Shown piece by piece: positions 37,352 to 50,172 of a stretch of DNA of 64,000 bases. Source of the stretch: Cytophagaceae bacterium (GTDB lineage: Bacteria; Bacteroidota; Bacteroidia; Cytophagales; Flexibacteraceae); contig CANGYH010000001.1 of NCBI GenBank assembly GCA_947458545.1, positions 1,240,001-1,304,000 on the forward strand, in the 5' to 3' direction. Both the position numbers and the translations under genes were made by a program. The notes under the pieces were generated by a model. The model was not told the origin of the DNA. It made no database searches and saw only the letters and a list, made by a program, of their open reading frames with translations. The stretch's first letter is position 1. Each line of letters opens with the position of its first letter.

Positions 37352-37386
37352 AGTTGAGAGTTGAAAGTTGAGAGTTGAAAGTTGAG
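37352..37386. repeat. Left heptamer array (AGTTGAR x5)
   Basis: Five contiguous 7-base units alternating AGTTGAG and AGTTGAA, immediately upstream of the lptB start. It is the inverted counterpart of the array at 37805-37846 (same unit, opposite strand). Confidence 0.9.
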
Positions 37387-37405: not shown

Positions 37406-37777
37406 CTACCTATTACTATTATTTTTCTTAGTGGCAAGAATAATGGACGTGAGCAAAGCAAAGACTTCCATTGTAATGGATTCCAATTCAACAAATTGTT
37501 CTTGAGTAATTAAACCTTCATCGAATAATAAATTAAGCCAGAGTTGGGTTTCGTCGGCTTCCTTGAGGGCAATGGATAGTTTATGAATAAAATCTGATTT
37601 TGACTCTGCGGATTGCGCCTCCCGCACCAATGCTCCTGGCGCTGTAGCTGAACGAATTAGTTGACGGGATACAGAATATTCATGCTTTTCCTTTTCTAGC
37701 CACCGGCCCAGGCGCAATGCCATTCGCGCCAATTGATATGACTTCTGCCCCAACGGACCCTTATGAACCAGTGGCAT
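37406..37777 (-). CDS. Four-helix-bundle protein (S23/IVS family)
   Basis: A 123-residue all-helical protein of the 23S-rRNA intervening-sequence/four-helix-bundle family. The pattern is clear: LGQKSYQLARMALRLGRW helix 1, YSVSRQLIRSATAPGALVRE at helix 2, AESKSDFIHKLSIALKEADE helix 3, then WLNLLFDEGLI and a last helix. The fold is shared with Avd proteins of diversity-generating retroelements, but no reverse transcriptase or variable repeat is near. The gene is more AT-rich than its neighbours and lies inside inverted heptamer arrays, which points to acquisition as a cassette. Its biochemical role is unknown. Confidence 0.85.
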   Translation of the reverse strand: MPLVHKGPLGQKSYQLARMALRLGRWLEKEKHEYSVSRQLIRSATAPGALVREAQSAESKSDFIHKLSIALKEADETQLWLNLLFDEGLITQEQFVELESITMEVFALLTSIILATKKNNSNR

Positions 37778-37804
37778 TTTTATTTATCAGTCAAGCAGGG
37801 CCGA

Positions 37805-37846
37805 CTTTCAACTTTCAACTTTCAACTTTCAACTTTCAACTTTCAA
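37805..37846. repeat. Right heptamer array (CTTTCAA x6)
   Basis: Six perfect, contiguous CTTTCAA units ending at the ychF stop codon. On the other strand the unit reads TTGAAAG, a rotation of the AGTTGAA unit of the left array. Confidence 0.95.
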
Positions 37847-38944
37847 CTATACATTAAATCTAAAGTGCATAATGTCCCCATCCTGCACGACGTACTCTTT
37901 GCCTTCCAGGCCGATTTTGCCGGCTTCTCGGCATGCGGCTTCGGTTTTGAACTTCTGGTAGTCTTCTAGCTTGATGACTTCGGCTTTGATGAAACCGCGC
38001 TCAAAGTCGGAGTGGATGACACCGGCCGCAGCAGGGGCCTTGTCGCCGCGGTGTATCGTCCAGGCGCGGACCTCTTGCACCCCGGCGGTGAAATACGTAA
38101 TCAGATTCAGAAGGGTATAAGCCGCCCGGATAAGCTTGGAGAGTCCAGACTCGGTCAAGCCGTACTCCGAGAGAAACAGGGCGCGCTCGTCTTCCGTCTC
38201 CAGCTCGGCAATCTGGCTCTCGATGGCGGCAGAGATTAGGATAACCTGGGCGTTCTCGCTTTTGACGGCCTCTTGTAGCGTTTCAGAGAACCTATTGCCG
38301 GTATTCACGCTGCCTTCATCTACGTTGGCCACGTAGAGCACGGGCTTGGCCGTCAGCAAGAAGATGTCTGCAATGGCAGCCTTCTCTTCGTCTGACTGGG
38401 CCAGGGCGCGGGCGTTCTGGCCGCCCTCCAGGCCGGTTTTGATTTGCTTGAGGATCTCCACCTCGGCGCGGGCCTTGGCGTCTCCGGCCTTGGCGGCGCG
38501 TTCCAGGCGGGCCAGCTTCTTATCTACAGACTCGATGTCTTTGAGCTGAAGCTCGGTATCAATCACCTCCTTATCGAAGAGTGGATCTACCCCACCTGCC
38601 ACGTGCACCACGTTATCGTCCTGAAAGCAGCGGATGACGTGGATGATCGCATCTACCTCGCGGATGTTGGCCAGAAACTGGTTGCCCAGGCCCTCGCCCT
38701 TGCTGGCCCCCTTCACCAGGCCGGCAATGTCCACAAACTCGATCACGGCAGGCACCACCTTTTGCGGGCTCACCAGGCCCTCCAGAATCTGCAGCCGGCC
38801 GTCGGGTACGGTAACCACCCCCACGTTGGGCTCTATGGTGCAAAAAGGATAGTTGGCCGCTTCGGCCTTGGCGTTAGAGAGGGCGTTAAACAGGGTAGAC
38901 TTGCCCACGTTGGGCAGGCCTACGATACCACATTGCAGGGCCAT
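37847..38944 (-). CDS. ychF: Redox-regulated ATPase YchF
   Basis: YchF is a universally conserved Obg-family P-loop protein that hydrolyses ATP rather than GTP and associates with ribosomes. The start at ATG 38942-38944 ([17 protein letters not shown]) gives 365 residues, the family length; an in-frame ATG at 39100 adds 52 unrelated residues. The P-loop is GLPNVGKST at 9-17. The altered G4 motif NVDE (in YVANVDEGS) explains ATP preference. The C-terminal TGS domain is intact to MHFRFNV. The stop codon abuts the heptamer array of the downstream cassette. A -7 box lies at 39012-39019. Confidence 0.96.
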
Positions 38945-47462: not shown

Positions 47463-47546
47463 CAATGGCAAAGCCATTGCACAGTTGAGGGGGAGGGCAA
47501 AGCTATTCCACAGTTGAGGGGGGGGCAAAGCTATTGCACAGTTGAG
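47463..47546. repeat. Three imperfect ~27-base tandem repeats
   Basis: Three consecutive copies built on GGCAAAGCTATTGCACAG followed by TTGAGGGG with small changes (GCCATT or GCTATT, one copy CCACAG). The first copy contains the palindrome AATGGCAAAGCCATT. They lie between the small outer-membrane gene and the terminase-like gene. Confidence 0.85.
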
Positions 47547-47594
47547 GCGGGGGCCTGGGTCGGGTGGGTTTGGTGGCGCGGGGACTGGGTGGGG

Positions 47595-48338
47595 TCAGGC
47601 GGCGTTGGCCAGCATTTGGTGTCCGCGCTTGGCTATGGCGGCAAGGTTGGCTGCGTGTTCCAGGTCTAGCCTGGCCATTTCTTTGTTGTGGTAGTCTTTG
47701 CTCCAATAGTTGAAGACCTGGCGTAGCTCGTCTGAGGAGAGTGCGTCTAGGTCGAGGTCTTCTGGAGGAGGGGTTTGGGCAGAGTAGCGTGGTGTGGGAT
47801 GAGTTGAGGGCTCCTTGTCTTTATGAACCCTTTGGACCTGCTGCGTTTGGGCCTGGTGGGCTGCCTGGTCTTGCTGATGGGCCGTTTCTGTTAGCTCTTC
47901 TTGACAGGTAATCTCTAGGAGCGAATCGTTTAGTTCTGACTCATTTTCAGCAGGTTGCAGGCCAAAAATGTCGGGCGATGTCGGAAGTCTGTTGACCGCG
48001 TTTGGGGCGAAGGCTTCGGGCGGCATTTTCTGGCAGGCACGGGCGACAGCCCTAAGCTCGGCAGCGGCGCGGAGCCACTCTTTGGGCGGGGCTGATGGGT
48101 CTTGCAGCAACTGGCGGCAGCGGTGCGCGATAAGGAGCATCTCGGGGCCGGAGACGATGAGGGTGGCCATGCGCTGACGCTCTAGCCAGGCCTGGACTGC
48201 GGGGCTGGACAAGATGCGGGCTGCGTTGGTGTCGGCTACGGAGCGGGTGTAACCTGCCTGGCGGGCGGCGCGGATGGCGTCGTTGCAGATAAGGTAGTGG
48301 CGGCAGAAGGCGCGTTGGCGGGGGCTCATGGCGGGCAT
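47595..48338 (-). CDS. Terminase small-subunit-like protein, orphan
   Basis: A 247-residue protein. Its N-terminal ~55 residues (SPRQRAFCRHYLICNDAIRA, ARQAGYTRSVADTNAARILS, SPAVQAWLER) match the DNA-binding helix-turn-helix of phage terminase small subunits. The middle is Gln/Glu-rich and disordered-looking, and the C-terminus is helical. No terminase large subunit, portal or capsid gene is near, so this is either a phage remnant or a domesticated DNA-binding protein. It lies between the 27-base repeats and the inverted heptamer element at 48344, whose left array begins six bases upstream of its start. Starts at residues 1 and 4 are both possible. Confidence 0.7.
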   Translation of the reverse strand: MPAMSPRQRAFCRHYLICNDAIRAARQAGYTRSVADTNAARILSSPAVQAWLERQRMATLIVSGPEMLLIAHRCRQLLQDPSAPPKEWLRAAAELRAVARACQKMPPEAFAPNAVNRLPTSPDIFGLQPAENESELNDSLLEITCQEELTETAHQQDQAAHQAQTQQVQRVHKDKEPSTHPTPRYSAQTPPPEDLDLDALSSDELRQVFNYWSKDYHNKEMARLDLEHAANLAAIAKRGHQMLANAA

Positions 48339-48343
48339 TAGAA

Positions 48344-48582
48344 ATTAAGGATTAAAAATTAAAAATTGGGATGAGGATCCGTGGGTTTGTGCCAAAAGCG
48401 TTCGGCTTTGGCCGTGGCCATAGCAGTAGCCCTAAGTTTCTAGCTTGGGGTGCACTGTGCAGGGGTATTGCCCTTGTCACCGGGTTAGGCATGCGGGCTA
48501 CAGGCCCGCGCTACAACGCCCTTAGCTTTACCCTACGCCCCACCCATTTTTAATTTTTAATTTTTTAATTTTTAATTCTTAA
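48344..48582. mobile_element. Second element with inverted heptamer arrays
   Basis: A 239-base segment bounded by inverted 7-base arrays. On the left are ATTAAGG, ATTAAAA, ATTAAAA and a partial unit (48344-48367). On the right are TTTTTAA units with one 8-base variant (48547-48582). The right array reads into the 3' end of the membrane-protein gene and supplies its last two codons and the TAA at 48572-48574. The interior has no convincing gene but holds a GCGGGC/GCCCGC hairpin near 48494. The unit AATTAAA differs from AGTTGAA of the 37352 element only by G-to-A at two positions. Confidence 0.5.
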
Positions 48583-50089
48583 CCCCCTGATTCGGCAGCC
48601 GGGGGTCTCCTACCCGCAAGATATAAGCGGGTAGGCGGCCTTGTTGCACAGGTACCAGCCACCACTGCTCGGTGCCCTGGCGGGTGTAGAAGGGGGCTGG
48701 GCGGGGCTGGCCGGGGGGCAGCATGGCCCAGGTCTCTTCGATGGCCTCGTGGTAGAAGTCGGCGTAGGCCGATCGGTGGATCAGGAAGTACGTTGGCAGG
48801 TTGTGGCCGAAGATGGGCAGCACATGCAGGATGCGGCCGGTGTCTGCCGGTTGCAGCCACATGCCTTCGCCCTCGGGCACGCAGTAGAGCTTGTGGCGCC
48901 GGCCGGCGGGCAAAGTCTTGTAGAGATGCTTCAGCACGGCTTGCCGGTCGGCATCGGTCAGGTAGGGTTTTTCTGGCGGCTGTATGACCATGCCCATCCA
49001 GAAATAGGGCTCTCGGCCATAGAGGGGCAGGTTGTAGATCTTCCCTATTATGAGCAGACCCATCAGCCCCAGCGCCGCAGCCGCCGTGGCCCAAGGGTGC
49101 AGCGCGGGGCGGCGGGCCAGCAACCGGGGCCAAACTTCGGCCTGGGCCCAGGCCAGCAGGCAGCCCAGCACCAGGGTAAGGGCCACCACATTGTAGATGC
49201 CATACGCCCAGCCCTGGCCCAGCACACGCATGGCCCAGAACACCACCGCCGCCACCAAGGCAAAGCCGATGGCCCTGCGGCCGGTGCGCCAGGCCCAGTA
49301 GGCCAGGCCTGCCAGGGCCGTGGCAAAGACGGCCTGGTCTGGCCGCCAGAGCAGCACCCGCAGGCCCTCGGCACTGCGAGAGGAGAGCTGGTAGCTCCAG
49401 TCGTGCCAGAAATCTGCCCAGTGGGCCAGCACATAGAAGCCGTAGCCTCCCACCACCAACAAAGCGAGCAAACCTACCGCCAGGTTGGCACGGCCTCGGT
49501 AGCTACGCCGAGGGGCCAAGGCCGCCAGCCCAGGCAGGGCAAGTACCATATATATGGCATTGGGGTGTACCGTCAGGCCCAGCAGGGCAAGCGCGGCACC
49601 GGCCAGCGTTCGGCCCTGCCAGAGTTGGTGCAATGCCAACAGCAGGAGGCAAAGCAGCAGAGCCTCCATGCGAACGAAGTTGCCCATCACCACCCAGTGG
49701 CGGCTGCAAAAAGCTACCGCCAGCAGCATCAGGCCCTGCACCTGCAAGCCCAGCCGCAGCCACAGCCGCGTCAGGCCCAAGAGCGCACAGGCTCCCAGCA
49801 CAAAACTGAGCCAACGCGCTTGGGCCAGCCCCTCCCCTACGCCCCGCAGCCAGAGGGCCAGGGTGGCCATGTAGCCCGGTGGCATCCAGTGCAGCGTCCG
49901 GCCTGGATAGAGGTGGTCTGAGGCCAGGCTACCGTGCAGACCCAGAGCCTGCGCCGGATAGTAGAACACAACCTCGTCTCCGCACGGATAGGGCAGGCTC
50001 AACCCCGCCCGGAGGTGCAGCCAAGCCCCGCCTGCCAAGGCAGCAGCCAGAACAGCCCACCAAACGAGCGGCAATCTGCAGACTTGCAT
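48572..50089 (-). CDS. GT39/ArnT-like polytopic membrane protein
   Basis: A 505-residue integral membrane protein (ATG 50087-50089) with about ten helices and a C-terminal periplasmic domain after about residue 375. The first periplasmic loop has SLPYPCGDEVVFYYPAQALG, where the acidic pair resembles the catalytic Asp-Glu region of lipid-phosphate-sugar-dependent glycosyltransferases of the GT-C type (GT39, ArnT). A WMPPGYMATLALWLR segment follows, as is common in that group. Substrates are unknown. Its final residues Lys-Asn and the stop lie in the right repeat array of the element at 48344, so the original 3' end may have been replaced. Confidence 0.72.
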   Translation of the reverse strand: MQVCRLPLVWWAVLAAALAGGAWLHLRAGLSLPYPCGDEVVFYYPAQALGLHGSLASDHLYPGRTLHWMPPGYMATLALWLRGVGEGLAQARWLSFVLGACALLGLTRLWLRLGLQVQGLMLLAVAFCSRHWVVMGNFVRMEALLLCLLLLALHQLWQGRTLAGAALALLGLTVHPNAIYMVLALPGLAALAPRRSYRGRANLAVGLLALLVVGGYGFYVLAHWADFWHDWSYQLSSRSAEGLRVLLWRPDQAVFATALAGLAYWAWRTGRRAIGFALVAAVVFWAMRVLGQGWAYGIYNVVALTLVLGCLLAWAQAEVWPRLLARRPALHPWATAAAALGLMGLLIIGKIYNLPLYGREPYFWMGMVIQPPEKPYLTDADRQAVLKHLYKTLPAGRRHKLYCVPEGEGMWLQPADTGRILHVLPIFGHNLPTYFLIHRSAYADFYHEAIEETWAMLPPGQPRPAPFYTRQGTEQWWLVPVQQGRLPAYILRVGDPRLPNQGVKN

Positions 50090-50172
50090 AGGGCACAAAG
50101 GTGCAAAGGCCGGAGGCCACCGGCTACCTTCGCAGCTAAGGGTACCGGCAGAGGTGAGGTACCTGCTTCTAC

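Follow-up and report, generated by a model that had tools for sequence, protein, structure and literature searches.

Intervening sequences (IVS) with an S23/IVP open reading frame, described in the 23S rRNA of Leptospira and Coxiella, are about 430 nt long, have complementary ends that form a stem and are regarded as selfish, according to the available part of the source (PMC4990558). The elements described here resemble them in the protein family (PF05635), in the complementary, stem-forming ends and in lying within transcribed DNA, but they sit in the junctions of protein-coding operons, have arms made of tandem heptads and also exist in gene-less forms. Long terminal inverted repeats that are internally repetitive are likewise known from the Foldback and Galileo transposons; according to the accessible part of that account (PMC3573991), those are eukaryotic and far larger, and Galileo has a P-type transposase, whereas the elements here have no transposase. 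Heptamer direct repeats, such as TAACTGA of Beggiatoaceae and the STRR of cyanobacteria, are 7-base intergenic tandem units at gene boundaries in Cyanobacteria and Bacteroidetes, as are the arms described here, but they are direct, nearly always one-sided and located upstream of start codons, and the accessible text of the source mentions neither an inverted pair nor PF05635 (PMC4679880). The likeness to REP/BIME sequences with RAYT lies in palindromic modules inside the element studied, which match those beside Y1 transposase genes; the heptad arms themselves, in contrast, are not REPs. The Avd protein of diversity-generating retroelements is a four-helix bundle and a structural homologue of PF05635 proteins (PMC10053308, in its available part), and one PF05635 member matches the Avd model weakly, below the model's cut-off. 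Genes of the family have also been reported within cas operons, in the accessible portions of two further papers (PMC3936711, PMC10910872). No paper joining heptad inverted arms to PF05635 was found in the accessible text of the open-access literature. Structures of PF05635 proteins have been solved, and to our knowledge no function has been established for them in the decades since IVS were first reported.

The window, meaning the whole stretch of 64,000 nt that was analysed, contains at 48.3 kb a segment of 239 bases, measured from array to array (48344-48582). The sequence-only reading had described this segment as bounded by inverted heptamer arrays, and both arrays were confirmed at their positions (Table 1). 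Their unit is AATTAAA, an A-rich variant of the family consensus A-G-W-N-N-T-N derived below. The left array is a weak repeat (TRF score 41, 79% matches), and one unit of the right array is 8 bases long, not 7. As the same reading had proposed, the right array supplies the last two codons of a minus-strand gene, AAG AAT TAA, which is read as K, N and stop at the end of the gene at 48572-50098. The other end, which it left unmentioned, also lies at a gene: the ATG of the gene at 47595-48338 lies at 48336-48338, directly at the left array. The element thus occupies the whole junction of two co-directional minus-strand genes. The gene at 47595-48338 is terminase small subunit-like (PF03592), and just downstream of that gene, at 47467-47554, a 28-bp unit similar to a REP module is repeated three times (GGCAAAGCTATTGCACAGTTGAGGGGGG).

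Table 1. Features of the 48.3-kb element and of its companion at 37.3 kb (positions within the window).
Feature	Position	Strand	Description
Left array, about 5 units	48337..48370	+	inward ATTAGAA ATTAAGG ATTAAAA ATTAAAA ATTGGG; read to 48371, the last unit is ATTGGGA
Interior	48371..48542		without cargo gene; decayed REP/BIME modules
REP-like module	48395..48455		AGCGTTCGGCTTT..GTAGCCC hairpin; one of about 39 matches genome-wide
Right array	48543..48583	-	inward from 48583: GTTAAGA ATTAAAA ATTAAAAA ATTAAAA ATTAAAA ATGGG
Gene upstream of element	48572..50098	-	508 aa, no Pfam match; 3' end within right array
Next gene	47595..48338	-	247 aa, terminase small subunit-like PF03592; start codon abuts left array
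Companion left array	37352..37386	+	AGTTGAG/AGTTGAA x5
Companion cargo gene	37406..37777	-	PF05635 / TIGR02436 four-helix bundle, 123 aa
Companion right array	37804..37848	-	AGTTGAA x6

The companion element at 37.3 kb has a PF05635 open reading frame between its complementary ends, which the 48.3-kb segment does not, and the first AG of its array at 37804-37848 belongs to the TAG with which the next minus-strand gene ends. Of PF05635 genes the genome contains two, each tightly enclosed by inverted heptad arrays, the one in the companion by AGTTGAA and the one on contig 9 by AATTAAA, as in the 48.3-kb element. The suggestion that the two elements of the window belong to one family is supported: the family is genome-wide, and both PF05635 genes fall within it, one with each kind of arm. 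Neither window element is inserted in a 23S rRNA gene; both lie between protein-coding genes. Having the ends but no PF05635 reading frame, the 48.3-kb segment is classed only as a gene-less relative of PF05635 or IVS-type elements.

Arrays of at least three units of the pattern A[AG][TA]T[AG]A[N] occur 82 times in 477 kb of this genome, a figure that refers to stretches fetched around pattern hits, which are enriched for arrays, and is not a whole-genome count. Five Markov simulations of the window gave 0.0 such arrays per 64 kb. The pattern proposed from the two window elements, A[G/A]TT[G/A]A(N), thus recurs well beyond them. A search for inverted pairs found 18 array pairs facing inward and one facing outward, the latter lying between two neighbouring elements, so that pairing is oriented. 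When arms were assigned to four unit classes (AGTTGA, AATTAA, AGTTAA and AGATAA), both arms were of the same class in 13 of the 18 pairs, against 5.7 expected by permutation (p=0.0001). Five units is the commonest array size, and most paired elements have their neighbour genes within a few bases. Four pairs are located between convergent genes and two between divergent ones. Each arm taken alone fits the class of 7-base intergenic tandem direct repeats (TAACTGA/STRR/LSSR); the inverted pairing and the placement at stop codons exceed that class.

The interior of the 48.3-kb element contains no PF05635 reading frame or remnant recognisable by similarity, and we rejected a decayed PF05635 gene as its origin. 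Its modules have what defines REP/BIME sequences with RAYT (a GTAG-type tetranucleotide with a hairpin, genome-wide occurrence, and copies beside a Y1 transposase gene), and the arms do not. Matches to the REP-like module often form inverted pairs 300-450 bp apart, and matching palindromic modules are found beside Y1 (RAYT-type) transposase genes at other places in the genome. The modules are nested in palindromic islands of about 0.9 kb, many of which are bounded by AGTTGAA arrays; heptad arms are also found on elements without any REP module. The short gene-less elements elsewhere in the genome each have a unique interior, except those containing REP modules, and no PF05635 remnant was found in the interiors of this genome's gene-less elements. 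They are therefore not simple deletion copies of each other, and the possibility that they are copies of one another was rejected on the same grounds.

The islands have a concentric, onion-like layout (L068 3467-4330; L073 3060-3967; L091 3201-4118; L094 3189-4090; 39 partial copies genome-wide), with REP/BIME modules flanking several different RAYT-like genes in inverted layers around a common centre. AGTTGAA arrays are often the outermost layer, and several assembly contigs end inside islands. Eight Y1_Tnp (RAYT-like) genes were located (L107-L114), at least six of which have short palindromic modules on their flanks. The same modules occur again in the islands, and several of them are inverted on the two sides of the gene.

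Of the 198 genomes sampled from the window's phylum, 157 have PF05635 proteins. Loci were drawn from family relatives, from a draw across the phylum and from named genomes of many phyla, and 129 of them could be tested for inverted arms against Markov sequence. Significant arms were present at 67% of 52 loci and at about 67-68% of a further 77, whereas none of 30 ParE control loci had them; about one third of the PF05635 loci have no significant arms. Autocorrelation at lags 7 and 14 was raised in the near flanks of PF05635 genes only. Members of the family have inverted arms of about five 7-base units, and 162 arms aligned in phase gave the consensus A(0.71) G(0.77) W N N T(0.51) N with 9% C, with an EM score of 986 against 230 for shuffled arms. 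The cargo of gene-bearing members is the PF05635 ('23S rRNA intervening sequence', 23S_rRNA_IVP) four-helix bundle protein. Individual arms have other units, such as AGATTTG, AGTATCA, AGAATCA, TTAGCGA and CAAAGATT, and in cyanobacterial plasmids most PF05635 copies examined have heptad arms (GGGAACA, ACAGGTG, TGTAGGG). The earlier view that period and pattern are kept as the bases drift agrees with these 7-periodic units in Bacteroidota and cyanobacterial plasmids.

AG-heptad arrays are many where PF05635 genes are many and almost absent from the sampled genomes without the gene: the median number of matches was 39 in 20 genomes with at least 11 PF05635 genes and 0 in 20 genomes without any (p=4e-8, not corrected for phylogeny). 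The comparison was made between genomes with and without the gene because in tandem heptads GA, like AG, recurs every 7 bases, which deprives a reversed-pattern control of its independence. PF05635 paralogues inside one genome are 34-68% identical, too diverged for recent transposition within a genome, which we rejected.

Members fill gene-gene junctions, usually between co-directional genes; one arm lies at the stop codon of the upstream gene and its partner shortly ahead of the following start codon. The PF05635 gene is co-directional with both neighbours in 111 of 132 loci; the same crude way of calling ORFs gave 34% co-directional gene triples in the loci fetched from the window's own genome. 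Measured from its outer end, the 5' arm is a median of 2 nt from the upstream stop, with 81% within -10..+15, and the 3' arm, measured likewise, is a median of 5 nt before the next start codon. TAG is over-represented among the upstream stops (47/112 vs 58/229, p=0.003), as expected if the first AG of the array is often part of the stop. The siting at stop codons that had been suggested for the two window elements therefore holds across PF05635 loci, but in this genome's unit family it is partly automatic, since repeats of a 7-base unit containing TAA or TGA put a stop into each of the three frames within 20 nt; here stop codons are often at -6, -13 or -20, positions at which the frame is closed by the array.

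A single operon junction in a Flavobacterium-like genus shows the element in gene-bearing form, as a gene-less hairpin and absent. Many species have a PF05635 element of 450-540 nt there, six of the species examined have a gene-less hairpin of 88-95 nt (AGAATCA AGAGCCA AGATCAA AGAC-loop-GTCTTT...), one has a 31-nt spacer, and others have an unrelated palindromic element. The junction is an insertion hot spot for unrelated elements. The proposal of forms with and without cargo is supported by this site, where both occur; the interior of the 48.3-kb element consists of decayed REP/BIME modules with no recognisable deleted gene. The two arms of one copy are more alike than arms of different copies: at this orthologous site, over 21 loci of which one is possibly wrongly delimited, the mean score of own pairs was 36.2, against 23.8 for permuted pairs with a maximum of 30.5 in 5000 permutations. 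That own-pair arms are more alike than arms across species indicates that the arms change together in place. No target-site duplication was found, the sole empty site compared being strongly diverged; nor did this junction, which is polymorphic but too diverged, yield a clean empty site with a target duplication. At L304 and L307 a palindromic element (TCCTC..CCAACCCTCTCC..AAAGGAGAGGG...) occupies the junction where sister species have the PF05635 element, and the PF05635 protein of L314 at this junction resembles another subfamily by sequence inspection.

Several explanations of the arms were weighed. The arms may be host RNA hairpins that process, stabilise or attenuate operon transcripts from within and evolve by slippage and palindrome correction, with PF05635 genes merely accumulating there. 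The predicted fold of the segment as single-strand RNA, in which the arms form the foot of the stem, is indeed strong, beating 200 of 200 shuffles (z -3.4 and -3.9); the pairs lie mostly at co-directional junctions, and the interiors of the short elements are each unique. Mismatches between arms, however, show no wobble asymmetry (75 G-U compatible vs 88 incompatible), so that maintenance of the arms as RNA stems finds no support and their likeness is better explained by template switching at the DNA level than by selection on an RNA stem. Pairs at convergent or divergent junctions, the way array numbers track PF05635 and the presence and absence of the element at one orthologous junction also argue against a host hairpin, which we consider unlikely. 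An Rfam scan of the window found two tRNAs only, with no structured-RNA match at the element.

Inverted termini and gene-less derivatives would also be expected of ordinary MITEs or transposons that an unlinked transposase mobilises, among the candidates being the RAYT (Y1) enzymes of the genome, with PF05635 as a passenger; the eight Y1 genes, several of them beside the same palindromic modules that fill some elements, could be read in this way. But RAYT modules are GTAG-plus-hairpin REPs and lie inside the arms, they are not heptads, and no target duplication was seen. A MITE family has a common terminal sequence, whereas each copy here has its own unit. The arms of the 48.3-kb element have the period, polarity and consensus of gene-bearing elements and the AATTAAA unit of the contig 9 copy, but no fixed sequence in common with them. 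We hold this explanation to be quite improbable. Very improbable indeed is simple A+T-rich slippage producing chance heptamer microsatellites, an alternative that the sequence-only reading had itself raised. Among long simple repeats, those with a heptanucleotide unit are the most frequent in many prokaryotes (Mrazek et al., cited in the available text of PMC4679880), and array lengths vary, but 18 inward pairs stand against one outward, no arrays of three or more units are expected by chance, the arms go with a single protein family and with stop codons, and most genomes without PF05635 have no arrays. Chance or plain slippage was therefore rejected as a full account; slippage is likely to be the source of changes in unit number.

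We consider it rather probable that the segment 48337-48583 belongs, as a copy without a gene, to a family of small, heptad-armed, selfish IVS-like elements on whose arms the PF05635 protein acts. We infer mobility, a role for the arms and an action of the pentameric protein on them. The elements would be selfish in the same way as 23S rRNA intervening sequences, and gene-less copies may persist as non-autonomous derivatives that are served in trans. The inverted repeats of a copy would correct each other by template switching and so stay alike, while slippage would gain or lose whole units. Heptads of this genome's unit family could make landing at a stop codon harmless, because every frame is closed within 20 nt, and the interior of the 48.3-kb copy may later have become a landing place for REP/BIME modules.

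How the protein would read the arms is suggested by an analogy. The structures of two PF05635 homologues, 2RLD and 2GSC, each contain five chains. The TRAP ring is known to read (G/U)AG repeats. A PF05635 protein of Xanthomonas is described as a pentameric ring (Lin et al. 2006, as cited in the available part of PMC4990558). Five subunits in the ring and about five AG-heptads in each arm together suggest one heptad per subunit, like TRAP, the target probably being single-stranded RNA or DNA. The strong sense-strand bias leaves room for an RNA route, as with IVS elements in rRNA. Our further proposal is that tandem AG-heptads would be a new class of element end, and that such TRAP-like reading would give an element programmed by protein and RNA, able to home to operon stop-codon junctions without a transposase and to seed gene-less copies genome-wide; it is tentative, and we rate it as rather unlikely.

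These findings connect PF05635, an old protein family, with DNA ends of a new kind. The inverted AG-heptads beside stop codons offer a testable substrate for PF05635 proteins, this fixed end structure also makes the origin of IVS elements testable, and heptad-armed elements offer a common account of scattered heptamer repeats in Bacteroidota and cyanobacteria. PF05635 genes within cas and secretion operons are probably selfish insertions and not functional partners (PMC3936711, PMC10910872, in their available parts).

Two cyanobacterial plasmids have PF05635 between cas6 and cas4 (L279 1501-1860; L283 1486-1854; type I-D operon in Anabaena sp. 90). L279 has no heptad arms; L283 has clear ones, with the unit ACAGGTG.
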